A stretch of DNA of 64,000 nucleotides. It comes from Propionispora vibrioides (GTDB lineage Bacteria > Bacillota > Negativicutes > Propionisporales > Propionisporaceae). Below the pieces are notes generated by a model. That model was not told where the DNA came from and ran no database searches. It saw only the letters and a list, made by a program, of their open reading frames with translations. The number at the start of each line of letters is the position of its first letter. Position 1 is the stretch's first letter. Positions 21,899 through 35,052 of this stretch are shown piece after piece. The position numbers were made by a program, and so were the translations under genes. The stretch covers positions 1 through 64,000 of the forward strand of contig NZ_FODY01000019.1 of the NCBI RefSeq assembly GCF_900110485.1. Reading direction: 5' to 3'.

Positions 21899-21936
21899 AT
21901 AATATCATAAAATGGATTTTAATTGCATTGTAGGTA

Positions 21937-21967
21937 ACGTACGGAGATTTCCGTGCGTTTTTTTATT
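21937..21967 (+). terminator. Terminator of the tRNA operon
   Basis: ACGTACGGA and TCCGTGCGT pair (9 bp, one G-U) and are followed by a run of seven or more T. Confidence 0.75.
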
Positions 21968-22097
21968 TTTCATGACTAACGGTAGTTGTTAATCTTGGTA
22001 GGTTTTAAACGGCGATAGGATAAGTCTAGCTTGGAGTTTCAATTCCGTATTGGCGCTTCTTATTCAAAATAAAAAGGATTCACAGAAAAAGCAGAGG

Positions 22098-22143
22098 TTA
22101 TTCATGAGTCGTTCATAGGCAATTCATAATACTTGATTATACT
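22098..22143 (+). promoter_or_regulatory. Response-regulator box A and promoter of the tandem-repeat protein gene
   Basis: Three TTCAT half-sites start at 22101, 22112 and 22123 (11-bp period); -10 TATACT starts at 22138, 15 bp after the third half-site starts. There is no good -35, as expected for an activator-dependent promoter. The geometry is shared with five other promoters in this island. Confidence 0.75.
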
Positions 22144-22296
22144 AGCAGTAAGGAAGCAGGCGCGGAAATGCTAGAGTGTTGTATAAATGGTTATTTTTCG
22201 CTTGGATGCTATAAAGCGGCTTCTTCCTTATAGGGACTGTATGAAAGAATGCATAGGATAGGCCCTGCTAATAACAAAATAAGGAGCGGAAAAACA

Positions 22297-22929
22297 ATGA
22301 AAAAAAAGGTAGTAATGGGAGCTACATTACTTATCAGTCTGGCATTGGCGGGTGTGGTTTCAGCGAATCCGGCATCTTTGCCAGATTTAGACCAAATTAG
22401 GCCGGACAAGGTCAGTGTGATTAATGCTGATTTGGAGAAAACTGTGGTTCGACCAGGCTATATCAAGGTAATCGATCATAATTCTACGAGTTATAGCAAA
22501 CGGGAGTTGAGTGGTCATACGGTGGAAAGCTGGATAAAAAACGGAGTCGCTTATACGGCGGTGGATGGAGTGACCACCAAAGAGAGTGCGATTAATGCCG
22601 ATTTGGAGAGAGTTGTTGCTCGACCAGGCTATATCAAGGTAATCGATCATAATCCTACGAGTTATAGCAAACGGGAGTTGAGTGGTCATACGGTGGAAAG
22701 CTGGATAAAAAATGGAGTCGCTTATACGGCGGTGGATGGAGTGACCACCAAAGAGAGTGCGATTAATGCCGATTTGGAGAGAGTTGTTGCTCGACCAGGC
22801 TATATCAAGGTAATCGATCATAATCCTACGAGTTATAGCAAACGGGAGTTGAGTGGTCATACGGTGGAAAGTTGGATAAAAGATGGGGTCGCTTATACGG
22901 TGTTGGATCGAAGTACGGTGAAGGAGTAA
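22297..22929 (+). CDS. Secreted protein with three 57-residue tandem repeats
   Basis: 210 residues: signal peptide (MKKKVVMGATLLISLALAGVVSAN), short linker, then three copies of a 57-residue unit containing INADLE, VVRPGYIKVIDHN, SYSKRELSGHTVESWIK and GVAYTAVDG. Units start at bases 22420, 22591 and 22762 and are nearly identical in DNA, with unit 1 the most divergent. AAGGAG lies upstream of the ATG at 22297. No known family recognised; each unit is mixed alpha/beta in character and lacks Cys, Met or His clusters apart from one His pair. Controlled by box A, so likely a member of the envelope/metal regulon. Confidence 0.75.
   Translation: MKKKVVMGATLLISLALAGVVSANPASLPDLDQIRPDKVSVINADLEKTVVRPGYIKVIDHNSTSYSKRELSGHTVESWIKNGVAYTAVDGVTTKESAINADLERVVARPGYIKVIDHNPTSYSKRELSGHTVESWIKNGVAYTAVDGVTTKESAINADLERVVARPGYIKVIDHNPTSYSKRELSGHTVESWIKDGVAYTVLDRSTVKE
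22420..22929 (+). repeat. 171-bp direct tandem repeats (three units)
   Basis: Units at 22420-22590, 22591-22761 and 22762-22929 (last cut by the stop). The period is exactly 171 bp and units 2 and 3 differ at few positions, which points to recent duplication or gene conversion. Confidence 0.9.
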
Positions 22930-23050
22930 ATTAAATCATATGGTAGCCGGATTTGTTCAAAAGAACCTGGAATTTTACTTCCAGGTTCTTTTTTGCTTTA
23001 TAACATTGCCGCGAATTCAATATACCAGAGTTTATAAAAAATAGAGGTTT

Positions 23051-23093
23051 TTCAAGAGTTCTTCATAGCTTCTTCACAATAGACTGGTATGAT
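23051..23093 (+). promoter_or_regulatory. Response-regulator box B and promoter of the 23189-25481 operon
   Basis: Half-sites TTCAA, TTCAT, TTCAC start at 23051, 23062 and 23073; -10 TATGAT starts at 23088, again 15 bp after the last half-site starts. Confidence 0.75.
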
Positions 23094-23188
23094 GAGAACA
23101 GAGTTGATCCAGAGAATGAGCCTGGATAAGGGACGAAGCGGCTTTACGGTCAGGTCCATATGCAGGACTGATAAGGAGGTGAGCTGCG

Positions 23189-23458
23189 ATGAAGTGCTGC
23201 AAACCGGAAAAAAGAAAAGACGATAAAAAGATAGAGCAAGCGCATAGCTATGGTGGGAAAATAAAGCATATGCTGTTGATGCTGGCCTATTGTCTGGCGC
23301 CGCTGGCCATGTTATTGTTTTTACAACAAAACGGTAATACTGGAGCCGCTGGATATTTGGTGCTGTTGCTTTGTCCGATCATGCATCTGTTTATGATGGG
23401 TGGTATGGGGCATAAACAGCATGTGGTATCTGATAAAAAAGAGGTAGGTAAATTGTAA
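23189..23458 (+). CDS. Small membrane protein, DUF2933-like
   Basis: 89 residues. Cys pair at the N-terminus (MKCCKPEKRK), then two hydrophobic segments (MLLMLAYCLAPLAMLLFL and GYLVLLLCPIMHLFMMGGMGH). The CPIMHLFMMGGMGH end resembles the DUF2933 family, often found with copper and heavy-metal genes. Cys, Met and His in and around the membrane suggest metal contact (inference). AAGGAGGTGA is the RBS. First gene of a probable operon with the Met-rich protein, lgt and the methyltransferase. Confidence 0.65.
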   Translation: MKCCKPEKRKDDKKIEQAHSYGGKIKHMLLMLAYCLAPLAMLLFLQQNGNTGAAGYLVLLLCPIMHLFMMGGMGHKQHVVSDKKEVGKL

Positions 23459-23509
23459 TAAAAAAGATCAGAGATGAGACAGAACAACAATATTATGAGG
23501 AGGATACTA

Positions 23510-23890
23510 ATGTTTAAAAATATAAATGGTTGGATGATTGGCGCTTTGGTGGTCGTGACAACACTAGGACTGGCTTTTGGGGCTACTTCGTTAGGCAAGG
23601 CGTCTGCGCAAGGTGTGGGGACGGTGCAAAAGGAGCAGTTGGACAATAAGAAGTCAGACATGATGGCGAATTCACCGGACATGCAAAAACAGTGTAAAGC
23701 CAAGATGAAGGATGTAGATCTTGATCATACCGGAGCGGCTGCACAGTCCGGAGAGGCAAAAAAAAGTCCGGATATGATGAAGTCGCCGGCCATGCAGCAG
23801 CACCGCCAGTCCATGATGAAAGAATCAGGAGACACTAATAAGGAAAAAACAACGGCTAACGATATTGCAGCAGGGGGAGATCGAACATAA
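23510..23890 (+). CDS. Secreted or anchored Met-rich protein (possible copper/silver binder)
   Basis: 126 residues: N-terminal membrane or signal segment (MIGALVVVTTLGLAFGATSL), then a hydrophilic, methionine-rich region with DMMANSPDM, CKAKMKD, SPDMMKSPAMQQH and QSMMKES. Met-rich periplasmic proteins of this style bind Cu(I) or Ag(I). GAGGAGG supports ATG 23510 over an upstream ATG. Located in the box B operon near the Cus-type pump. Followed by a hairpin (23914-23944). Confidence 0.6.
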   Translation: MFKNINGWMIGALVVVTTLGLAFGATSLGKASAQGVGTVQKEQLDNKKSDMMANSPDMQKQCKAKMKDVDLDHTGAAAQSGEAKKSPDMMKSPAMQQHRQSMMKESGDTNKEKTTANDIAAGGDRT

Positions 23891-23913
23891 CGCACATTAT
23901 TCTCTGGAGCGGG

Positions 23914-23984
23914 GATGCCTAGTATCCATACGGTGCTAGGCATCTATGCTTATTAAGTAAGTCATGTCGGTTTACTTAATAAGC
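23914..23984 (+). promoter_or_regulatory. Two hairpins between the Met-rich gene and lgt
   Basis: GATGCCTAG/CTAGGCATC (23914-23922, 23936-23944) and a perfect 13-bp stem GCTTATTAAGTAA/TTACTTAATAAGC (23948-23960, 23972-23984). Neither has a T-run. They may limit read-through or stabilise mRNA ends; the second could also be an operator. Confidence 0.4.
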
Positions 23985-24016
23985 TGCAATGAAATTATAC
24001 GGAGGGCGGTGAAGTT

Positions 24017-24802
24017 ATGCATCCCATTTTATTTAGTATTGGTGATTTTCAGATTCACATCTGGGGCCTGCTGGTCGCGTCGGGGATTTTTGCCGGTTTA
24101 TGGCTGGCTGACAAACTAGCGCATGGGTCGGAGTTTGCAACCTGTATATTGCAGGAATACGTCTTATATGGCATTTTTACCGGACTATTGGGAGCGAGAA
24201 TCTGGGAGGTTGTATTTTCCTGGAGTGATTATGCTGCCACCCCGCTACGTGCCCTTTTATTTTGGCAAGGTGGCCTGTCCATTCAGGGAGCGGTGGCTGC
24301 TAATGTGGTGCTGGCCTGGTGGTATTTCCGGCGGAAAGGTTTGTCGTTTCGCCGTTTTGCCGATATTGCAGCGCCGGGATTGATCTTAGGTCAGGCGATT
24401 GGCCGTTTTGGTTGTTTTTTCAATGGTGATGCCTACGGAAAACCAACGGATGCCTGGTATGGGGTGGTTTATCAGCCGGGTACACCGGCTTTCCAGGCTT
24501 GGGGTACTACACCTCTTGTACCGGCTGAGCTAATGGAAGCCGGTTTGGATCTGGTTATATTAGCCATACTATTGCGCGTATTTCACCGGAAAGAATTTGA
24601 AGGTCAGGTTGTGCTGGCTTACTTTATTCTCTATTCGCTGGCTCGGTTCGGACTGGAGTTTTTCCGCACCGACAGTTTGATGATTGGTGGGTTTAAGGCG
24701 GCCCAAGTGACCGCGCTCGTTACTGCTCTGGTAACGGCGCTTCTTTGGCTGTGGCAGCGGCGGCCGGTGCGGAAAGAACGTTTGGTGGGCGGGCGAATCT
24801 AA
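24017..24802 (+). CDS. lgt: Prolipoprotein diacylglyceryl transferase (accessory copy)
   Basis: 261-residue, seven-helix enzyme that moves diacylglycerol onto the lipobox Cys of prolipoproteins. Diagnostic segments: IHIWGLLVASGIFAGLW, WQGGLSIQGAVAAN, the signature GQAIGRFGCFFNGDAYGKPT and the late ARFGLEFFRTD. GGAGGGCGGTGAAG is the RBS. Its place in a regulated accessory operon, away from the usual lgt context, suggests a specialised second copy, perhaps for lipoproteins such as the one at 34594. Confidence 0.9.
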   Translation: MHPILFSIGDFQIHIWGLLVASGIFAGLWLADKLAHGSEFATCILQEYVLYGIFTGLLGARIWEVVFSWSDYAATPLRALLFWQGGLSIQGAVAANVVLAWWYFRRKGLSFRRFADIAAPGLILGQAIGRFGCFFNGDAYGKPTDAWYGVVYQPGTPAFQAWGTTPLVPAELMEAGLDLVILAILLRVFHRKEFEGQVVLAYFILYSLARFGLEFFRTDSLMIGGFKAAQVTALVTALVTALLWLWQRRPVRKERLVGGRI

Positions 24803-24824
24803 AAGTAATAGGGAGGAAATAAAG

Positions 24825-25481
24825 ATGGAACATAACTGGGGTTATGGCTTATGGTCTTTGGTGTTGATTAATTCGCTGGTGTTTATTATCTTTGCCTTTA
24901 GCTTTACTCGGCCACGGTCCTGGACCGACTGGCGGACCTTTGGCACTTTCGCGGCATTTATCGTGGCCTTGTTTACGGAGATGTATGGATTTCCGCTGAC
25001 GATTTATCTATTATCAGGCTGGCTTGGCAATTACTTGCCCGGCAATGCGCTGTTCGGACATAATGCCGGGCATTTGTGGTATACAGTCCTGGGAATGAGC
25101 GGCGACCCTCATCAAAACCCGATTCATACGATTAGTGAATGGCTCATCTGGGGAGGTTTAATCTTTTTGGCTGTGACCTGGCGCTATCTGTATCGCGCTC
25201 AGCAGGAGCATGTTTTAGCGACTACCGGTCCGTATGCTGTGATACGTCATCCTCAATATGCAGCATTTATTGTCATTATGAGCGGTTTTCTGCTCCAGTG
25301 GCCAACGCTCCTTACTTTGCTTATGTTTCCTATTCTGGTTCGTATGTATATTCATCTGGCCCGGTTGGAGGAAAGGGAAGCCCGAGCAAGCTTTGGCGGG
25401 GATTACGAACGGTATGCGACGGCTACACCCGGCTTTCTCCCGCGGTTAAACCGGAAGAAAACCGCGACACATGAAAAGTAA
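24825..25481 (+). CDS. Isoprenylcysteine-methyltransferase-like membrane enzyme
   Basis: 218 residues with about five membrane segments. The conserved SAM-binding C-terminal part of the ICMT/PEMT family is seen as TTGPYAVIRHPQYAAFIVIM and EEREARASFGGDYERYATATPGFLPRL. Likely a methyltransferase acting on a lipid or membrane substrate; bacteria lack prenylated CaaX proteins, so the true substrate is unknown. 22 bp after lgt, in the same operon. Confidence 0.75.
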   Translation: MEHNWGYGLWSLVLINSLVFIIFAFSFTRPRSWTDWRTFGTFAAFIVALFTEMYGFPLTIYLLSGWLGNYLPGNALFGHNAGHLWYTVLGMSGDPHQNPIHTISEWLIWGGLIFLAVTWRYLYRAQQEHVLATTGPYAVIRHPQYAAFIVIMSGFLLQWPTLLTLLMFPILVRMYIHLARLEEREARASFGGDYERYATATPGFLPRLNRKKTATHEK

Positions 25482-25540
25482 ACCGGATATATATGCCATT
25501 CTATCAAATCCTAAAGTTGATGTAAGAGATCTTGTATTAG

Positions 25541-25582
25541 TAGGAGTAGCCGGATACCGATTTGGCAGCCGGTTACTCCTAA
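25541..25582 (+). terminator. Hairpin ending the box B operon
   Basis: GGAGTAGCCGG (25543-25553) pairs with CCGGTTACTCC (25569-25579); no clear T-run follows, so termination strength is uncertain. Confidence 0.45.
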
Positions 25583-25595
25583 ATCTCATAAGTTC

Positions 25596-25638
25596 TTCAA
25601 AACTTCTTCATAGCTTTTTCACATTAGTTTAGTATACT
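25596..25638 (+). promoter_or_regulatory. Response-regulator box C and promoter of the 25700 gene
   Basis: TTCAA, TTCAT, TTCAC start at 25596, 25607, 25618; -10 TATACT starts at 25633, 15 bp later. An imperfect fourth half-site (CTCAT) lies 11 bp upstream. Confidence 0.75.
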
Positions 25639-25699
25639 AAGCAACAAGATCATGATATTCAGGAAATATATATGGTAATTACATAAGGAGAGAACGAGA

Positions 25700-25891
25700 A
25701 TGAATAAAAGATTGCCCCGGATTTTTTTGTCCGGTATATTGGCTGCCTTCATAATTGGTACAGCTATCAATCCTGCAGCTACCCCTGTATTTGCCACAGA
25801 ACAGACGTCAGGACAGGATCAGCAAAATTCGCCGGTGGATGCTCCCCAGAGTGAGCAAAATATTCATGCCGGTCATCATGCAACGAGCTAA
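25700..25891 (+). CDS. Small secreted protein with His tail
   Basis: 63 residues: signal peptide (MNKRLPRIFLSGILAAFIIGTAINPAATPVFA), leaving about 30 residues rich in Gln, Ser and Asp and ending NIHAGHHATS. The HAGHH tail recalls the His-rich end of the CusB-like protein and the lipoprotein in this island. AAGGAGAG is the RBS. It has its own regulated promoter (box C) and terminator. Confidence 0.6.
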   Translation: MNKRLPRIFLSGILAAFIIGTAINPAATPVFATEQTSGQDQQNSPVDAPQSEQNIHAGHHATS

Positions 25892-25910
25892 GATTGTAAC
25901 CAGAAAAGGC

Positions 25911-25939
25911 AGCCCTTCAGGTAAGGGTTGTTTTTTCTT
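25911..25939 (+). terminator. Terminator of the 25700 gene
   Basis: CAGCCCTT and AAGGGTTG form a short stem followed by TTTTTTCTTC. Confidence 0.7.
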
Positions 25940-26057
25940 CTGCTTATACATATAACTTAATTCTGGCAAATTAGACAAGTTCGGTTGTATTTTCTGAAGA
26001 ATAGTAAGGTTATGCTTTGATCGTAAAAACGACCGATGTTTTAAATTACATATATTA

Positions 26058-26100
26058 TTCATAGTTTCTTCAATACTTCTTCATAATGGCCTTGTATACT
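26058..26100 (+). promoter_or_regulatory. Response-regulator box D and promoter of the two-component operon
   Basis: TTCAT, TTCAA, TTCAT start at 26058, 26069, 26080; -10 TATACT starts at 26095, 15 bp later. This suggests the response regulator activates its own operon. Confidence 0.75.
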
Positions 26101-26184
26101 GATGGAGAGTGTAATGCAGAGAACGAACTAGGATGATCCCGGGGAACTAAAAAAGATGACTGCTGTTTTGAAAGGAGGGCTTTT

Positions 26185-26880
26185 ATGGCTCCCGATTTTG
26201 TATTGATTGTCGATGATGATGCAAAGCTTGCCAAGCTGCTAACAACGTATTTTGAAAAAGCAGGATTTCTAACTGAGGTGGCTACCGACGGCTTGAATGC
26301 ATTGCAAATCGTACGGCAGCGCAAGCCGGATATTATTGTACTGGATTTAATGCTGCCCGGCCTGGATGGCTGGGAAGTATGTCGGAAAATCCGGCGAGAC
26401 AACGACACTCCTATTATCATGCTTACCGCCCGGGATGATGAAAGCGATCGGCTGGTAGGATTAGAAATCGGCGCTGATGATTATGTGACTAAACCTTTCA
26501 GCCCGAAGGAAGTAGTAGCCCGGGCCAGGGTAATTCTTAGGCGGACCCGTAAGGAAGTCGTGCAACATGAACCCGTTCAAATTAGTAATTTAACGATTGA
26601 TTTCGAACGTTACCGGGTGGAGCGTAACGGTAAAACCATTGAATTAACGCCAACAGAATTTAAAATATTAGGTATTTTGGCCACTAATGTCGATAAGGTA
26701 TTTAGTCGGCTGCAAATTGTGGAACAAACTCAAGGGTATACCTTTGACGGTTATGAGCGGACTATTGATGCACACATTAAGAACTTACGACGCAAACTGG
26801 AAGAGAATCCCAAAGAGCCGCAATATATTCAAACTGTTTATGGAATAGGTTATAAATTCGCCGGTGATGTTGGTGATTAA
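26185..26880 (+). CDS. OmpR-family response regulator
   Basis: 231 residues. Receiver domain (1-120) with acidic pocket Asp10-Asp11-Asp12, phospho-acceptor Asp54 in LDLMLPG, Thr81 and Lys103 (TKPF). Winged-helix DNA-binding domain (about 135-228) with LTPTEFKILGILA, YERTIDAHIKNLRRKLEENP and VYGIGYKFAG. OmpR-type regulators bind direct repeats about 11 bp apart, which matches the boxes A-F around this gene. AAAGGAGGG is the RBS. Its start is 84 bp downstream of the box D -10. Confidence 0.95.
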   Translation: MAPDFVLIVDDDAKLAKLLTTYFEKAGFLTEVATDGLNALQIVRQRKPDIIVLDLMLPGLDGWEVCRKIRRDNDTPIIMLTARDDESDRLVGLEIGADDYVTKPFSPKEVVARARVILRRTRKEVVQHEPVQISNLTIDFERYRVERNGKTIELTPTEFKILGILATNVDKVFSRLQIVEQTQGYTFDGYERTIDAHIKNLRRKLEENPKEPQYIQTVYGIGYKFAGDVGD

Positions 26881-26881
26881 A

Positions 26882-28042
26882 ATGAACAGTATTATTACGC
26901 GAATTACGGGATTGATGTTTTTGACAGTGGTATTGACGGTATTTTTGCTCATCTATCTGACCAACCAGCAAATGACACAACTTTTTCAGGAATACCTGGT
27001 GGTACAACATATGGAGGCGGTTCGGGGAACTATGCTGCTTCTAAATGAGCCGGATGAAAGTATTATCATGGGACCATTGGAGCATACCTTTTTGGCCTCT
27101 GTTCATACATCGCTCATTTGGGTGGGGATGAGTATTTTAGCAGCAGGGCTCCTGGCGAGTTATATCCTGGCCCGCAGCATTACTGTTCCACTGCGTAATC
27201 TTAGCCGGGCCGCTGAACAAATTGCCCAAGGTAATTATGAGCAAAATGTACCGATAGAGACCCGGGATGAGGTTGGCTATTTGGCTGGCATTTTCAACCG
27301 TATGTCTGAGGCATTAAGAGTCAATACAAAATTACGCCAACAGTTGCTAGCCAATATTGCCCATGAGCTTAAGACGCCGTTGGCGGTTATCCAGGGACAT
27401 TTGGAAGGTATGGTTGATGGGGTGATTGAACCGAGTAAGGAACAGCTCGGTTCACTGCATGAAGAGGCTATTCATTTGAATCGACTGATAAAAGATCTCA
27501 GGGATTTATCGTTGGCCGAAGTTCGTCAATTGGCACTTGAAAAGTACCCGACCAATATTAACCCTATTGTCACCCGGGCGGTTATCCTACTCAAGCCTCT
27601 GGCCGATGTCAAACATATCCGGATTACCTCTATATTAGCCGATTGTCTGCCGGAAGTGGTGGTGGATAGCGACCGGATGAGTCAGGTGTTTTACAATCTT
27701 CTGGTGAATGCTATCCGTTATTCACCGGAACAAGGAGAGATTCAGGTTACTACCAGGCTCGTGATGAAGGAAAAAGATCGTTGGTTGCAGGTGGCGGTTG
27801 CCGACCATGGCTCCGGGATTGCCTCGGAGGATATGCCGTATCTTTTTGATCATTTTTACCGGGGTGATAAGTCAAGGGATCGTAAAAGCGGCGGGTCCGG
27901 ATTGGGACTCGCCATTGTAAAACAGTTGGTGGAAAACCATGGCGGCAAAGTGACGGTGAAAAGTGAATTAGGAGAAGGTAGTGTTTTTCAAGTACTGATA
28001 CCTATAGAAACAGATTTGACACATTCAGCGGAAACGCAGTGA
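26882..28042 (+). CDS. Sensor histidine kinase, partner of the 26185 regulator
   Basis: 386 residues: first membrane helix (about 9-26), a short extracytoplasmic segment (27-76), second helix (about 77-97), HAMP (98-150), HisKA with His161 in LANIAHELKTPLAVIQGHLE, and HATPase with FYNLLVNAIRYSP, DHGSGIASEDMPYLFDHFYRG and GSGLGLAIVKQL. The ~50-residue sensor loop is small and includes Met, Glu and His residues, so direct metal sensing is possible but unproven. Start 2 bp after the regulator stop; an earlier in-frame ATG overlaps the regulator. Confidence 0.92.
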   Translation: MNSIITRITGLMFLTVVLTVFLLIYLTNQQMTQLFQEYLVVQHMEAVRGTMLLLNEPDESIIMGPLEHTFLASVHTSLIWVGMSILAAGLLASYILARSITVPLRNLSRAAEQIAQGNYEQNVPIETRDEVGYLAGIFNRMSEALRVNTKLRQQLLANIAHELKTPLAVIQGHLEGMVDGVIEPSKEQLGSLHEEAIHLNRLIKDLRDLSLAEVRQLALEKYPTNINPIVTRAVILLKPLADVKHIRITSILADCLPEVVVDSDRMSQVFYNLLVNAIRYSPEQGEIQVTTRLVMKEKDRWLQVAVADHGSGIASEDMPYLFDHFYRGDKSRDRKSGGSGLGLAIVKQLVENHGGKVTVKSELGEGSVFQVLIPIETDLTHSAETQ

Positions 28043-28057
28043 TGATTCTTGAAACAT

Positions 28058-28214
28058 CTAGTACCTTGTCAGTCAGTAGGGGAATGGCGAGGCTGTTTTT
28101 CGCAACGTGAGGTGAAGGAAGGCGGCAGACCATTAGTATGCTAACTGACGACAACGAAGCGGTGCGGAAAATAGACCGCCCGTATTCACTGGACTAAGCC
28201 TGACAAGGGACTAG
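28058..28214. repeat. Palindromic CTAG-ended element M2 (MITE-like)
   Basis: A 157-bp element with inverted ends CTAGTACCTTGTCAG and CTGACAAGGGACTAG. Read on the minus strand its inside (CCGCACCGCTTCGTTGTCGTC, then GCATAC, then GTTGCGAAAAACAG) follows the layout of element M4 (TTCGCACTGCTGCGTTGTCGTC, CTTACATA, ATTGCAAAAAAATC). No coding capacity. It sits between the kinase stop and its terminator. Confidence 0.6.
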
Positions 28215-28217
28215 TGA

Positions 28218-28251
28218 GGGGACGCAGATAAGCTGCGTCTCATTTTTTTTT
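28218..28251 (+). terminator. Terminator after the two-component operon
   Basis: GACGCAG (28221-28227) and CTGCGTC (28233-28239) followed by a long T-run. Confidence 0.85.
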
Positions 28252-28319
28252 ATTTGCGTTATCCGCCTTGGTGTCCAATTTTAAGAAAACTGCCAGACCA
28301 ACTAAAAAAGCATTACTTC

Positions 28320-28362
28320 TTCATGACATGTTCATTACATCTTCACACCATGCGGGTATGAT
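28320..28362 (+). promoter_or_regulatory. Response-regulator box E and promoter of the 28-residue peptide
   Basis: TTCAT, TTCAT, TTCAC start at 28320, 28331, 28342; -10 TATGAT starts at 28357, 15 bp later. Confidence 0.75.
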
Positions 28363-28393
28363 TACGGCATGTATTAGAAGGGGGAAGAGAATC

Positions 28394-28480
28394 ATGTGGC
28401 TGTTATTTTTTGTGCAATTGTTTGCATTAGGAATCATTATTCGTTATATTGTCATTCTTCGGGAGGAGGAACGTTCTTGA
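28394..28480 (+). CDS. 28-residue single-helix membrane peptide
   Basis: MWLLFFVQLFALGIIIRYI followed by VILREEERS: one hydrophobic helix and a charged, cytoplasmic-looking tail. GAAGGGGGAAGAGA precedes ATG 28394. A longer in-frame reading from 28268 would start upstream of the box E promoter and is rejected. Such short single-helix proteins often bind and tune membrane pumps or kinases (KdpF-like size). Having its own regulated promoter argues that it is expressed. Confidence 0.6.
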   Translation: MWLLFFVQLFALGIIIRYIVILREEERS

Positions 28481-28544
28481 ACTCCTCTATCAATGAACTG
28501 TCTTATGTAAAGAAGCCTTCCGATAGTTTTAGAACGAAGCAAAA

Positions 28545-28598
28545 TTCATAAGTTCTTCAATATCCCTTCATAACTTATTCATACGAAACTTGTATAGT
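28545..28598 (+). promoter_or_regulatory. Response-regulator box F and promoter of the tolC-cusBA operon
   Basis: Four half-sites, TTCAT, TTCAA, TTCAT, TTCAT, start at 28545, 28556, 28567, 28578 (11-bp period); -10 TATAGT starts at 28593, 15 bp after the last. It is the only box with four clean half-sites. Confidence 0.78.
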
Positions 28599-28683
28599 TG
28601 AGTAGTAAGTCATTTAGGGACGATAGCTTCTAACCGAGCAATTATGTTGAACTAATTTTAGATCGCAGAAAAAAGGAGGCACT

Positions 28684-29982
28684 ATGGACAAACGAAAATG
28701 GGCAACCGGGAAGAGGTTGGTGCTGATAACCCTCATGACCGTATTGGCAAATACCCCGGTTTTGGCAGCAGAACAGCAGGAAATATTGACCCTACAGCAG
28801 ATAGTGGATACGGCGGTCAAAAATAATCCGGCTGTTATGGAAAGCCAGAAGCGCTGGGAAGAAAAACAGGCACGTATTGCACTGGCTAAAGCCTGGCCTA
28901 ACCCTCAGCTTGGCATTATGAAAGATGATATTCCCAAAAACAGCCTCAATCCCTTTGACGCTATGATGACCGAATATACGTTTACTCAGGACATCATGAA
29001 TCCGGCAAAATTAAAAGCGATGGGGAAAATGGCCAGCAGTGATGCAGGGATGGCCGAAGCCAATTATCGAGACAAGCAAATGGAGGTTTACTCCACAGCG
29101 AAATCCGCCTATTATGACCTGCTTTATGCCGATAAGGCACTGGAAATCGGCAAAGAAAATCAGCAATTGATGGGCCAATTGGTACAAATTGCCCAGGTGA
29201 ATTATTCAACCGGGATGGTACCTTTACAAGATACGCTCCGGGCTCAGACTGAGTTTTCCACAATGACTACGGATTTATTAAATATGGCATCTATGGCGGC
29301 GGTAGCTAAAGCCAAGGTGAATACTATTCTTGGCCGTTCAGCCGATACGCTGTTTGCGGTACAGGAAGAGTTTAGTGCACCGCCACCCAATTTTGATTTA
29401 GCTGCATTGCAAAAAGAGGCGCAAACCAATAAACCGGCGGTTGTGAGCATGGAACGGCAACTGGCTATGGCAAAGAACGGTGTGGAGCTGGCTAATAAAC
29501 AAAGCTTGCCCGATTACCAGTTGAGTATTGGCTATAAAGACAGAAAACAGACAATGATGGATACGCAACCCGACACCTGGAAGATGGAATTTATGGTCAT
29601 GCTGCCGTTGTGGCAGAGTAAAAACAAGGCAGAAGTCAGATCGGCCGAGGCAAGTCTGGATACTGCCCAGGCATCCTTGGCTACCATGAAAAATATGACT
29701 GACCTGGATTTACAAATGGCCTTGACCGAAGCTCAATCGGCTTGGCGTCAAATTGATCTGTATAAAAACACGGTGATTCCGCAGGCTGAACAAACCTATC
29801 AGGCCGGAGTGGTAAGCTATACCAATGGCAAGGTCGATTTTATGGCAGTTTTGGATAGCCTGAACGCCCTGCGCAACGCGAAATTAGATTACTATAAAGC
29901 CCGCGTGGATTATGAAAAAGCAGTGGCTAATTTGGAGAAAGCAGTAGGGAAACCCTTGTTTACCAGTGAGGCACAGCCATAA
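28684..29982 (+). CDS. TolC-family outer-membrane efflux channel
   Basis: 432 residues with a signal peptide ending VLAAEQQ. The long alpha-helical repeats of the OEP family are visible twice (about 40-220 and 235-425), with NPQLGIMKDDIP in the first repeat and typical Ala/Gln/Leu heptads. It forms the outer-membrane duct for the RND pump encoded next. Its presence shows a diderm envelope. AAAGGAGG is the RBS; 25 bp before the cusB-like gene. Confidence 0.92.
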   Translation: MDKRKWATGKRLVLITLMTVLANTPVLAAEQQEILTLQQIVDTAVKNNPAVMESQKRWEEKQARIALAKAWPNPQLGIMKDDIPKNSLNPFDAMMTEYTFTQDIMNPAKLKAMGKMASSDAGMAEANYRDKQMEVYSTAKSAYYDLLYADKALEIGKENQQLMGQLVQIAQVNYSTGMVPLQDTLRAQTEFSTMTTDLLNMASMAAVAKAKVNTILGRSADTLFAVQEEFSAPPPNFDLAALQKEAQTNKPAVVSMERQLAMAKNGVELANKQSLPDYQLSIGYKDRKQTMMDTQPDTWKMEFMVMLPLWQSKNKAEVRSAEASLDTAQASLATMKNMTDLDLQMALTEAQSAWRQIDLYKNTVIPQAEQTYQAGVVSYTNGKVDFMAVLDSLNALRNAKLDYYKARVDYEKAVANLEKAVGKPLFTSEAQP

Positions 29983-30007
29983 AGGTAATAGGAAATGGAG
30001 GGACAGC

Positions 30008-31270
30008 ATGATAGAAAAATTTCGATCCAAAAAGAAAATCATCATGGGCGTAACTGCCGGTGTGTTGGTTGTCGGTGGAGTTGGCTATTATTATACCGCG
30101 CAGCATAATCAACCGGCAGCAGCAGGGCATGCGGGACATCAAATGTCCGGGCCGGTCATGGCTATGGGTGATACGGTGACATTAGACGCAAAAGCCCGTC
30201 AACTGGTCGGGCTGCAGACAGCACAAGCTGTTACTAAGCCGCTAAACAAGGAGATAAAGACTACCGGCAAGATTGCTATGAACGAGGATGGAAAAACCTA
30301 TATTACGTCCCGGGTTGAGGGCCGGGTCGACGAGCTGTATGTAACTGCGGAAGGGGAGACAATCGCTCCCGGCCAGGCTATTGCCGCCGTATACAGTCCA
30401 ACTTATATTGCCGCTCAGGAAGAGTATTTGCTGACCCTGGAGAGTGTACAGAAACTGCAAAATGCCGGCAAGGATGTTGTCCAGATTAACAACCGTCTGC
30501 GGGAAGCGGCCCGGCGTAAACTACAACTATTAAATGTTGCAGATGAAGATATTGCTCACCTTGAACATACTCGCCAGACCAAGGACCATATGACAATCTA
30601 TGCCCAGTTCGGCGGGACGGTATTGGAAAAACAATTACTGCCGGGTGCGTACATTATGCCTGGTGATAAACTATACAGTTTATCGGATTTATCCACTGTA
30701 TGGCTATATGCTGACATTTACGAAAAGGACATCGCCAGCATTACTCCCGGCCAACAGGTGGTGGTAACGAGTGGAGCCTATCCGGGAGAAACATTTACCG
30801 GTCAAGTGACCTTTATTAATCCGGTGCTTGATGATGCGACCCGGACTGTTAAGGTACGGATCGCAATGGCCAATCCTTCAGGAAAATTAAAACCCAATAT
30901 GTTTGTGAATGCCACTTTGCAAATCCCATTAGGAGATAGTCTGGTCATTCCGGAATCGGCTATTTTGGATACCGGCAGCCGCAAAATTGTCTTTGTAGCC
31001 CAAAGTGAAGACACTTTTGTTAAACGGGATGTAGTTACCGGGCAGTCGGCGGATGGCTATGTTCAAATCCTGTCCGGACTGCAACCGGGAGAAACCGTAG
31101 TTACCGCAGCTACCTTCCTTATTGATTCTCAAACCAAACTGGGCAGTTTTGGCAGTCATGCCGGCCACGGTGGCGGAGGGGCCGCAAGCGCACCTGCGGC
31201 AACAGGCGATCAGGGCAGTGGTGAATCACCGGCTGCCGGGGGCGAACACAGCGGCCATAGCGGTCATTAA
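30008..31270 (+). CDS. cusB: RND periplasmic adaptor, CusB-like
   Basis: 420 residues. N-terminal membrane anchor (IIMGVTAGVLVVGGVGYYY), barrel-sandwich lipoyl-like halves (GRVDELYVTAEGETIAPGQAIAAVYSP and the matching GGTVLEKQLLPGAYIMPGDKLYSL), an alpha-hairpin between them, then beta-barrel and membrane-proximal domains. A His-rich stretch follows the anchor (AGHAGHQMSG), and the C-terminus ends in Gly/His-rich GGEHSGHSGH, fitting metal handling. GGAGG precedes ATG 30008. Confidence 0.9.
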   Translation: MIEKFRSKKKIIMGVTAGVLVVGGVGYYYTAQHNQPAAAGHAGHQMSGPVMAMGDTVTLDAKARQLVGLQTAQAVTKPLNKEIKTTGKIAMNEDGKTYITSRVEGRVDELYVTAEGETIAPGQAIAAVYSPTYIAAQEEYLLTLESVQKLQNAGKDVVQINNRLREAARRKLQLLNVADEDIAHLEHTRQTKDHMTIYAQFGGTVLEKQLLPGAYIMPGDKLYSLSDLSTVWLYADIYEKDIASITPGQQVVVTSGAYPGETFTGQVTFINPVLDDATRTVKVRIAMANPSGKLKPNMFVNATLQIPLGDSLVIPESAILDTGSRKIVFVAQSEDTFVKRDVVTGQSADGYVQILSGLQPGETVVTAATFLIDSQTKLGSFGSHAGHGGGGAASAPAATGDQGSGESPAAGGEHSGHSGH

Positions 31271-31281
31271 GGAGGATCAGC

Positions 31282-34200
31282 ATGCTCAATCAATTAATCG
31301 AGTTTTCCTTGAAAAACCGCGTGATTGTTTTAGTATTAACCGCGTTGGTTATTGTCTGGGGAGTTTTTACCGTACGGGATACTCCTATCGATGCCTTTCC
31401 TGATCTGAGCGAAAATCAGGTTCTTGTTTCGGCCGACTGGATGGGACGGGGACCGCAGGAAATTCAGGACCAGGTTACCTATCCCTTGGAGACAGCCTTG
31501 CGTGGTCTGCCTAACGTAAAAGAAGTACGTTCGGCTTCTTCTTTCGGGATGTCGCTGATTACTGTTATTTTTGAGGATGGAGTGGAACCTTATTTTGCCC
31601 GCCAGGTGGTAAATGAGAAGGTACAGCAGGCTATTCCTCAACTGCCGCGCGGTGTTCAGCCAACACTGGGCCCGGTCAGTACGCCAATGGGCCAGGTATT
31701 TATGTATACAGTGGAAAGCGACCGCCACAACTTAGCCGATTTACGAACGGTAGAGGATTTTACCATCAAGCAGCAGCTCAGCGCCGTACCCGGTGTAGCC
31801 GAAGTGGCCAGCATTGGCGGCTATGTCATGCAGTATCAGGTCAACCTTGACCCGCAGCTTATGCAAAGCTACCGGGTGACGTTTAATCAGGTATTCGGGG
31901 CACTGGGGGCTAATAACGCCAATATTGGCGCCAAGGTTGTAGAGCAAAACGGCCAGGAATTCATTATTCGTGGTCTGGGTTTAATTGAATCGATTGATGA
32001 TATTAAAAACATTGTGATCACCCAAAACAATAATGTACCTATTTATATCAAAGATGTGGCCAGTGTGGCGGCCGGTCCGGATTTTCGCCGCGGGGTACTG
32101 ACAAAGTCCGGCTATGAGGCGGCCGGCGGCATTGTCATTCAGCGTATGGGCGAAAATACTCTTAATGTTATCGATCAAGTGAAAGCTAAAATCGCCGAGA
32201 TTCAGCCAACTTTACCAGAAGGAATGAGGATCGTTCCTTTTTATGACCAAACCGATTTGGTGAAAAAAGCGGTCAATACGCTAACCCGGGCACTTATTGA
32301 AGAGTTTATTCTGGTTTCTATCATTGTAGTTCTTTTTTTAGGCAATGTCCGGTCCAGCTTGATTGTTACCAGCGCCATCCCGATTGGTATTTTAATTGCA
32401 TTGATTGCTATGAAGCAAATTCATTTGTCAGCCAATTTGATGTCTCTTGGCGGGATTGCTATCGGCATTGGAGTTATGACGGATGCGGCTATCGTTATGG
32501 TAGAAAATATCTTCCGGCATTTGGCCGAGGATCGCGGACGGCGCAATATCATTGAAGTAACGCTGGAAGCCGCGAAAGAAGTAGCCGCACCCATTTTCTT
32601 TTCCATAACAATTATTATTGTCACCTTCCTGCCGGTCTTTACCATGACCGGTACCGAGGGTAAAATGTACACGCCGATGGCCTGGGCAAAGTCCTTTGCT
32701 ATGAGCGGATCGCTGCTGCTGGCCTTTACGCTGGTACCGGTATTGTGCACCTTGCTGCTTAAGGGTAAGATCCAGGAAAAGGATACCTGGATTGTTGCCA
32801 AAATGCATCAGTGGTATGAGCCGGTTTTAAAAGCTGTGATGAAGTATTATAAAACTACCATTACGGCCGCTATTGCTGTTATGATTGCCGGATTTTCCTT
32901 GCTGCCGCTTTTAGGAACAACCTTTATGCCGGCCTTGGATGAAGGAACATTTCTGGTGATGCCGACCATGCTGCCCAGTGTATCTTTGTCCGAAGCCCTG
33001 GAAGCAGCCAAAACCATGGATAAAGTCATCATGGACATTCCTGAAGTCGATATGTCGGTGGGAAAAGTCGGCCGGGCGGAATCGGCTATGGATCCGGCTC
33101 CCATCAGCATGATTGAGACCATCGTGACCTTAAAGCCCAAGGCAGAGTGGCGGCCTGGTGTAACCAAAGACACCATCGAACAGGAAATGATGGCCAGACT
33201 TGCCAACATTCCCGGTCTTAATTTAGCCTTTACTCAGCCGATTGCCGGCCGGTTATCAATGTTGACTACCGGGGTACGTACCGAATTAGGCATTAAACTG
33301 TATGGGGAAGACCTAGCCGTATTGCAGCAAAAAGCGTTTGATATTGAAAAAGCCTTGGCAACGGTACCGGGCGTCAGCGACCTTCTGGCGGAACGGGTTT
33401 TTGGTGCCTCTTATCTGGAGATTCAGGTTAACCGGGAAAAAGCGGCCCGTTATGGTTTGAACATTGCTGATGTCGAAGATGCCGTGGAACTGGCAGTCGG
33501 AGGTAAAAGTGCCACCACTACCATCGAAGGGCGTAAGCGTTTCAACGTGCTGGTGCGCTATAACCGGGAAAACCGCGAAAGCATTGACGCTATGCAAAAT
33601 ATTCTGATCCCGGTAACCGGCAGTGGGGCGGGTGTAACGGCAAATGCCGGCGTTGGGATGGGCGGCATGGGCGGTGGTGGTGCGACCGCGGCGGCGAAGC
33701 CGGTCAGCGGAGCCTATATACCGCTAGGGGAAGTTGCCCAATTTCAAGTGGTTGACGGACCATCAATGATCAGCAGCGAAAACGGAGTCTACCGGATGAT
33801 TGTACAGATGAATACCCGGGGACGGGACGTGGTTAGCTTTGTGAATGAAGCCAATAAGGTTATTAAAGAAAAGGTGGATTTGCCTCCCGGTTATTCTATG
33901 AAATGGACCGGACAGTATGAAAATCAGCAACGGGCTAAAGACCGCCTGGCTATTGTAGTTCCGGCAGTTGTGGTACTCACCTTCTTTTTGCTTTACATGA
34001 GCTTTAAGTCGGTCAGCGATGCTTTCCTTATCTTAATGAATATTCCTTTCTCTTTGGTCGGTGGTATTGTGGCGATGTATCTGACCAATACCTATCTGAC
34101 GGTAGCGGCGGCAGTCGGGTTTATTGCCCTCTTTGGAATTGCCGTGCAAAACGGGGTAATTATGGTGACGTATATAAAACACCTGAGAGATCAACGGTCT

Positions 34201-34470
34201 TTGGAAGAAGCAATTATGGAAGGAGCGTTTACCCGTTTGCGGCCGGTCATGATTACTGCGCTTGTCGCCAGCTTAGGCTTGTTTCCACTTATCTTTGCAA
34301 CTGGTACGGGCGCCGAGGTGCAACGGCCGATGGCTACGGTTGTTGTCGGCGGACTGGTTACCTCCACAATTTTGACACTGATTGTACTGCCTTGTATATA
34401 TCTGGTCTGGCATCGGTGGCTTGAGCGGAAAAAACCAACTGTAACCGGAGACTTTCATACGGTAGAGTAA
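31282..34470 (+). CDS. cusA: Heavy-metal RND efflux pump, CusA/CzcA family
   Basis: 1062 residues, 12 membrane helices and two large periplasmic loops. DTPIDAFPDLSENQVLV, the proton-relay helix GIAIGIGVMTDAAIVMVENI and AESAMDPAPISMIETIVTLKP are diagnostic of the heavy-metal branch; the last resembles the Cu/Ag (CusA) subgroup, so monovalent cations are favoured over Zn/Co/Cd. Around residue 780 there is an inserted Gly/Met-rich stretch (GVGMGGMGGGGATAAA). GGAGG RBS, 11 bp after the adaptor. Confidence 0.93.
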   Translation: MLNQLIEFSLKNRVIVLVLTALVIVWGVFTVRDTPIDAFPDLSENQVLVSADWMGRGPQEIQDQVTYPLETALRGLPNVKEVRSASSFGMSLITVIFEDGVEPYFARQVVNEKVQQAIPQLPRGVQPTLGPVSTPMGQVFMYTVESDRHNLADLRTVEDFTIKQQLSAVPGVAEVASIGGYVMQYQVNLDPQLMQSYRVTFNQVFGALGANNANIGAKVVEQNGQEFIIRGLGLIESIDDIKNIVITQNNNVPIYIKDVASVAAGPDFRRGVLTKSGYEAAGGIVIQRMGENTLNVIDQVKAKIAEIQPTLPEGMRIVPFYDQTDLVKKAVNTLTRALIEEFILVSIIVVLFLGNVRSSLIVTSAIPIGILIALIAMKQIHLSANLMSLGGIAIGIGVMTDAAIVMVENIFRHLAEDRGRRNIIEVTLEAAKEVAAPIFFSITIIIVTFLPVFTMTGTEGKMYTPMAWAKSFAMSGSLLLAFTLVPVLCTLLLKGKIQEKDTWIVAKMHQWYEPVLKAVMKYYKTTITAAIAVMIAGFSLLPLLGTTFMPALDEGTFLVMPTMLPSVSLSEALEAAKTMDKVIMDIPEVDMSVGKVGRAESAMDPAPISMIETIVTLKPKAEWRPGVTKDTIEQEMMARLANIPGLNLAFTQPIAGRLSMLTTGVRTELGIKLYGEDLAVLQQKAFDIEKALATVPGVSDLLAERVFGASYLEIQVNREKAARYGLNIADVEDAVELAVGGKSATTTIEGRKRFNVLVRYNRENRESIDAMQNILIPVTGSGAGVTANAGVGMGGMGGGGATAAAKPVSGAYIPLGEVAQFQVVDGPSMISSENGVYRMIVQMNTRGRDVVSFVNEANKVIKEKVDLPPGYSMKWTGQYENQQRAKDRLAIVVPAVVVLTFFLLYMSFKSVSDAFLILMNIPFSLVGGIVAMYLTNTYLTVAAAVGFIALFGIAVQNGVIMVTYIKHLRDQRSLEEAIMEGAFTRLRPVMITALVASLGLFPLIFATGTGAEVQRPMATVVVGGLVTSTILTLIVLPCIYLVWHRWLERKKPTVTGDFHTVE

Positions 34471-34593: not shown

Positions 34594-35052
34594 ATGAAAA
34601 AAACTAAAGTATTATTTGGCATTGTGGCTATTGTCGCAGGGATGGCTCTAATCGCAGGCTGCGGTTCTAGTGAAAAACCGGCGGCTCAGACTCCTGCGGC
34701 GCAGGAACAGGCGACCGGCCATCAGGGACATAGCGCGACAATGCCTAAGGAAGATCCCATGCCTATCATGAAGGATATGGACAAAGCGTTGCAAGACGTA
34801 GTAAAGCAAGTGAAGGGCGGCCAAATGATGGATGCCCAAAAGAGCGCGGCACAGCTCGTGAGTACAGTGGACAAAGTTCTTCCCCATATGATGGATGACG
34901 GTCTGGAAGATCATTTGCGTAAAACAGCAAAAGACATTAAAGACAGCGTAAATTCGGGAAAAACGGATCCGAGTGCTCTTGAAGGTAAAGTCAAAGACAT
35001 GCAGGCTATTATGAAAGAGACTACAACGCATCTGCAAAGCATGAATCACTAG
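34594..35052 (+). CDS. His/Met-containing lipoprotein
   Basis: 152 residues with lipoprotein signal (lipobox LIAGC, Cys near residue 23). After a flexible Ala/Gln-rich linker with HQGHSATM come mostly helical sequences with Met and His (PMPIMKDMDKAL, MMDAQKS, VLPHMMDDGLEDHL). Possible periplasmic metal-binding or sensor lipoprotein linked to the pump. It needs Lgt for maturation, and an extra lgt is in the same island. GGAGGG RBS. Family not recognised. Confidence 0.7.
   Translation: MKKTKVLFGIVAIVAGMALIAGCGSSEKPAAQTPAAQEQATGHQGHSATMPKEDPMPIMKDMDKALQDVVKQVKGGQMMDAQKSAAQLVSTVDKVLPHMMDDGLEDHLRKTAKDIKDSVNSGKTDPSALEGKVKDMQAIMKETTTHLQSMNH

Follow-up and report, generated by a model that had tools for sequence, protein, structure and literature searches.

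A putative exported protein of three 57-residue units in a predicted copper/silver regulon of Propionispora vibrioides

In the CusRS/CusCBA system of Escherichia coli, an RND pump with a Cu(I) methionine triad is placed under two-component control together with co-regulated accessory envelope proteins, and the site of the regulator CusR is a palindrome. PcoE, SilE, and CusF are small exported proteins that are induced along with copper efflux and bind copper via methionine/histidine-rich motifs or a defined metal site. The locus of Propionispora vibrioides described here resembles the E. coli system in its pump, its mode of control, and its accessory envelope proteins, whereas its regulator is PhoB/BaeR-like with three TTCAT direct repeats, and its regulon also includes DUF2933, Lgt, and ICMT genes and the gene for a new repeat protein. 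Like PcoE, SilE, and CusF, the repeat protein is small, predicted to be exported, and apparently part of a copper efflux regulon; unlike them, it lacks methionine and cysteine in its mature part, and its sequence is not detectably similar to that of any solved structure. Genes for DUF2933 and ICMT proteins accompany copper ATPases in Alteromonas and other bacteria, according to the accessible part of a published account (PMC8478169); the locus likewise holds DUF2933 and ICMT-type genes together in a copper cluster, whereas that part of the account makes no mention of the repeat protein, which was not found outside its class in the genomes sampled.

The window, i.e., the whole stretch of DNA analysed, comprised 64,000 nucleotides. 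TRF detected a 171-bp tandem array at 22414–22908 with 2.9 copies, 95% matches, and a score of 892; the only other tandem array in the window scored 56. The ORF that carries it encodes a signal peptide that a short linker joins to three in-frame 57-aa units, with base identities of 162/171 (units 1 and 2) and 148/153 (units 2 and 3). The initial annotation had described the ORF as three near-identical 171-bp units encoding a secreted protein, and TRF, the unit identities, and the translation confirmed the former, while the predicted signal peptide supported the latter at the sequence level. The features of the gene and its promoter are listed below.

22101–22127, forward strand: regulon box, three direct repeats of TTCAT at an 11-bp period (TTCATGAGTCGTTCATAGGCAATTCAT), from the genome scan and the promoters of 10 relatives
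22138–22143, forward strand: −10 hexamer TATACT, beginning 15 bp downstream of the first base of the last TTCAT
22281–22286, forward strand: Shine-Dalgarno sequence AAGGAG, from the sequence
22297–22929, forward strand: ORF of the predicted exported three-unit protein, 210 aa (translation; dN/dS ~0.19)
22297–22365, forward strand: predicted signal peptide MKKKVVMGATLLISLALAGVVSA, ending in VSA, with cleavage before N24 placed by eye
22414–22584, forward strand: unit 1 (TRF register), 162/171 bases as in unit 2
22585–22755, forward strand: unit 2 (TRF register), from TRF and base comparison
22756–22926, forward strand: unit 3, 148/153 bases as in unit 2, followed by C-terminal divergence
22959–22992, forward strand: intrinsic terminator, a 14-pair stem with a T-rich tail after it

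The start of the gene was placed at 22297 rather than at an alternative in-frame ATG upstream (22249), based on the Shine-Dalgarno sequence and the fit of the signal peptide. The signal peptide has no lipobox cysteine, and the N-terminal MKK and the cleavage region were conserved in the family alignment. Since a second terminator lies on the 5' side (21936–21959), the gene is flanked by terminators and is probably monocistronic. The dN/dS of ~0.19 in orthologous pairs reflects purifying selection, indicating that the ORF encodes a real protein. An antisense ORF (22387–22860) was rejected as a gene and regarded as a by-product of the repeat.

The promoter of the repeat gene carries a regulon box, as had been proposed. 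The box has the architecture (TTCAT-N6)x3, and the sequence at 22101–22127 was the only exact match to it in the 4.43-Mb genome. When mismatches were allowed, far more boxes were observed in the 64-kb window than in its shuffles. The full promoter element, with at most 2 mismatches, matched seven times genome-wide, six times in the window and once in front of a DUF6803 gene (C3:186998); a reversed control pattern gave 0 matches in this genome. The 15-bp spacing from the last TTCAT to the −10 hexamer was common to the six window promoters and to all 10 boxed promoters of homologs. The other elements in the window, and the pump genes, are as follows.

23051–23093, forward strand: same promoter element, upstream of DUF2933, 138-aa, Lgt, and ICMT genes (23189–25481; Pfam)
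25596–25638, forward strand: same promoter element, upstream of a 63-aa ORF (25700–25891)
26058–26100, forward strand: same promoter element, upstream of response regulator (26185–26880) and kinase (26864–28042) genes
28320–28362, forward strand: promoter element, the first of two before cusC
28556–28598, forward strand: promoter element, the second of two before cusC
28684–34470, forward strand: CusC, CusB, and CusA genes (TIGR00914; alignment to CusA structures)

The box also precedes 10 relatives of the repeat gene. Together with the window gene, this gave 11 promoters, of which 9 matched with at most 2 mismatches and all 11 with at most 3, against backgrounds of 0.1% and 1.2%, respectively, of 250-bp stretches produced by simple base shuffles. 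Approximately 30 matches to the element were found on one 208-kb contig of Sporomusa acidovorans (G311, contig C20), which suggests a very large copper regulon in that species. The leader of the window gene (22144–22296) is ~150 nt long, and the distance from the box to the start codon is 169 bp, compared with 46–67 bp in the relatives. Rfam gave no RNA match in 21900–29000 and the long 5' leader folded no better than its shuffles (z −0.28); thus, no riboswitch is claimed.

The response regulator and the kinase downstream of the third element in the list of neighbours are presumed to form an autoregulated controller. Judging from the neighbourhood, this regulator would bind the TTCAT box, and the signal sensed by the kinase would be copper or silver, in line with its cus neighbours. 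In family scores, the pair was closest to BaeRS, below the cut-off. Orthologs or close paralogs of the regulator were present in 9/9 genomes searched, all nine of which had boxes. A second response regulator of the P. vibrioides genome (G000:C10:67629–68315) is 69% identical to the window regulator, and no full promoter element with at most 2 mismatches was found on its contig. The pump is of CusA type: CusA scored 1157.7 bits against TIGR00914 (cut-off, 701.45), and its closest solved relative was E. coli CusA. In the structure-sequence alignment, methionine occupies E. coli positions 573, 623, and 672, the Cu(I) methionine triad of that pump. A lipoprotein-like ORF (34594–35052) and an NlpC/P60 gene (35077–35628) follow cusA, and such genes also adjoin cusCBA in several relatives. 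Genes for cusCBA, CopA/CopZ-like proteins, or multicopper oxidases are found beside relatives of the repeat gene, as is the same regulator/kinase pair. Based on the CusA triad, these copper-gene neighbours, and the company that DUF2933 and ICMT genes keep with copper ATPases elsewhere, the TTCAT regulon is, by its gene content, a copper/silver regulon. The metal/envelope regulon to which the gene had been assigned could accordingly be sharpened to copper/silver by the shared element and the triad.

Of 380 genomes of the same class, 19 yielded relatives of the repeat gene in profile searches, Sporomusa and Selenomonas among them, and a 398-genome sample of the phylum Bacillota yielded none outside the class. 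Named members occur in Sporomusa malonica, S. acidovorans, and the Selenomonas ruminantium plasmid pSRC1. The three-unit protein falls within the family as we define it (the DxNPTxY module), i.e., a signal peptide followed by 1–3 units with conserved D/N/P/Y/K/E/T/D/G; across 47 units, the (nearly) invariant positions were D19, N21, P22, Y25, K27, E36, T46, D49, and G50 in unit numbering. By genome search, the gene is lacking in two congeneric species and in another member of the family, all of which still have the regulator and boxes; it is therefore accessory. One single-unit relative (G304:C25:35556–35734, minus strand; L064/L070) has its frame broken inside the unit, and may be a pseudogene or the result of an error in sequencing. 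The sequence had been called unfamiliar, and this description held: all matches in Pfam, NCBIfam, and PHROGs were below the curated cut-off or spurious, and a PDB sequence search gave no credible match, leaving no well-studied domain among the matches in these four databases. The accessible part of the literature on copper in Pelosinus and Sporomusa contained no report of the repeat protein or the TTCAT box. Two AlphaFold predictions (13 whole proteins; 48 units) gave an all-beta meander of low confidence, with mean pLDDT values of 44.9 and 58.5, and Foldseek searches with these low-confidence models returned no significant match (best E value, 0.0075). Kinship with MelC1, the caddie that transfers copper to tyrosinase, which was among the top Foldseek matches of the unit model, was considered and rejected, given E values of 1.4 and worse, an rmsd of >9, a low-confidence model, and no sequence or Pfam match.

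The near-identity of the units had been taken as a sign of recent expansion with a possibly variable repeat number, an interpretation that comparison with the relatives did not support. Among the genes with a copper box, 10, including the window gene, consist of three units and one of two; the single-unit genes (~100 aa) are a separate type. Relatives in several families usually have three units. In one genus with genomes of ~5 Mb, the units grouped by position across species in the unit tree, which places the triplication before the divergence of those species. In the Sporomusa-type genes, unit 3 grouped by position and units 1 and 2 were mixed, and the three units of the window gene grouped together with one single-unit protein; the tree was built from few alignment columns, and many of its forks are weak. 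Given that three units are usual and that they group by position in one subgroup, we attribute the near-identity either to homogenisation of an array that was already present or to independent triplication; it gives no indication that the repeat number varies.

The mature protein (186 residues) contains no methionine, no cysteine, and six histidines, two per unit (DHN and GH). The repeated methionine/histidine motifs of the PcoE/SilE type are absent, and the PDB contained no sequence match of note to CusF or other copper chaperone structures. Across 47 units, the first histidine was kept in 32, often being replaced by arginine, and the GH histidine in 37; one or both histidines are missing from several units of Sporomusa. 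The suggested metal binding was not borne out by this composition, and soft-metal chelation is unlikely to be the core function, given the lack of cysteine and methionine and the variable histidine columns. We consider it unlikely that the protein is a copper sink or chaperone whose six histidines, arranged in three sites, bind Cu(II)/Cu(I) in the periplasm and pass it on either to CusCBA or to a multicopper oxidase; membership of the regulon, the cus neighbourhood, and the two histidines per unit, the GH one in particular, would fit such a role, whereas the residues missing from the mature chain, the incomplete conservation of the first histidine, and the retention of the same module in relatives without a copper promoter argue against it.

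These relatives place the module in other settings. HxlR-type regulators adjoin four box-less genes of the family, two of them with three units and two with a single unit, with HxlR-family (PF01638) genes next to box-less copies at L076 7012–7674, L084 6979–7299, and L088 6936–7358. At L076, an Fe-S nitroreductase gene lies downstream. Among named models, one of the HxlR-type regulators came closest to the redox regulators RrpA/RrpB, below the cut-off. The Selenomonas copy belongs to a gene cluster encoding flavodoxins as well as aldo/keto reductases, and three relatives have an RseC/MucC-type gene next to the repeat gene (L072 8937–9359; L074 7901–8371, called by its sequence; and L077 7683–8102). 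All of these neighbours would suit a general envelope protein against redox or electrophile stress that was recruited by copper regulation, copper being one of several inducers, although most multi-unit members have the copper box and cus neighbours, and we regard this explanation as rather improbable. Single-unit relatives with a signal peptide were also found in structural-gene cassettes of prophages (L123–L127; genomes G062, G063, and G067), for instance at L123 6001–6276 (IMGVR_UViG_3300013830_000349), between a tape measure gene (phrog_12798) and a Dit gene (phrog_33), and, at L127, following the portal and head genes. None of the phage records in INPHARED matched a unit, and IMG/VR contigs did. 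By their context, these relatives appear to be exported phage morons, and together with the box-less HxlR-linked copies they indicate that the module is probably not copper-specific. It is very unlikely that the modules serve adhesion or phage interaction, binding a surface glycan or blocking phage adsorption under incidental copper control as the morons might suggest, since the copies in prophages are only distantly related (41% identity to a unit) and the multi-unit copies go with copper genes across several families.

We favour, with modest confidence, an envelope-protective binding or chaperone-like protein; its non-chelating action on the envelope is proposed on account of the missing cysteine and methionine and the use of relatives, without the copper promoter, beside HxlR regulators and by prophages. 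Under this proposal, a rise of copper or silver in the periplasm would lead the kinase to phosphorylate the PhoB/BaeR-type regulator, which would bind the three TTCAT repeats beside a weak −35 region and recruit RNA polymerase. The repeat gene would be switched on together with CusCBA, DUF2933/Lgt/ICMT, and DUF6803, and the three-unit protein, periplasmic or on the surface, might bind and shield some component of the envelope or envelope proteins that are misfolding, which is the least certain step. The three-module architecture would be fixed and its copies kept alike in this lineage. Overall, we give about even credence to an exported accessory protein of the copper/silver regulon with a non-chelating envelope role and a fixed three-module array.

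More broadly, and only tentatively, the 57-residue unit may represent a new exported envelope module restricted to one class of double-membraned Bacillota, used three at a time to counter copper stress and controlled by a TTCAT regulon absent from the literature searched, with other copies under HxlR control and single ones borne by phages, which would imply one shared envelope target. What the module binds would be a testable question, as the same unit occurs in prophages and beside redox-type regulators. The family would add an uncharacterised exported protein to bacterial copper defence, and the promoter code would allow the copper regulon of Sporomusa-like bacteria to be read from the genome, such that other unknown copper genes could be listed directly from the ~30 matches on a single Sporomusa contig.
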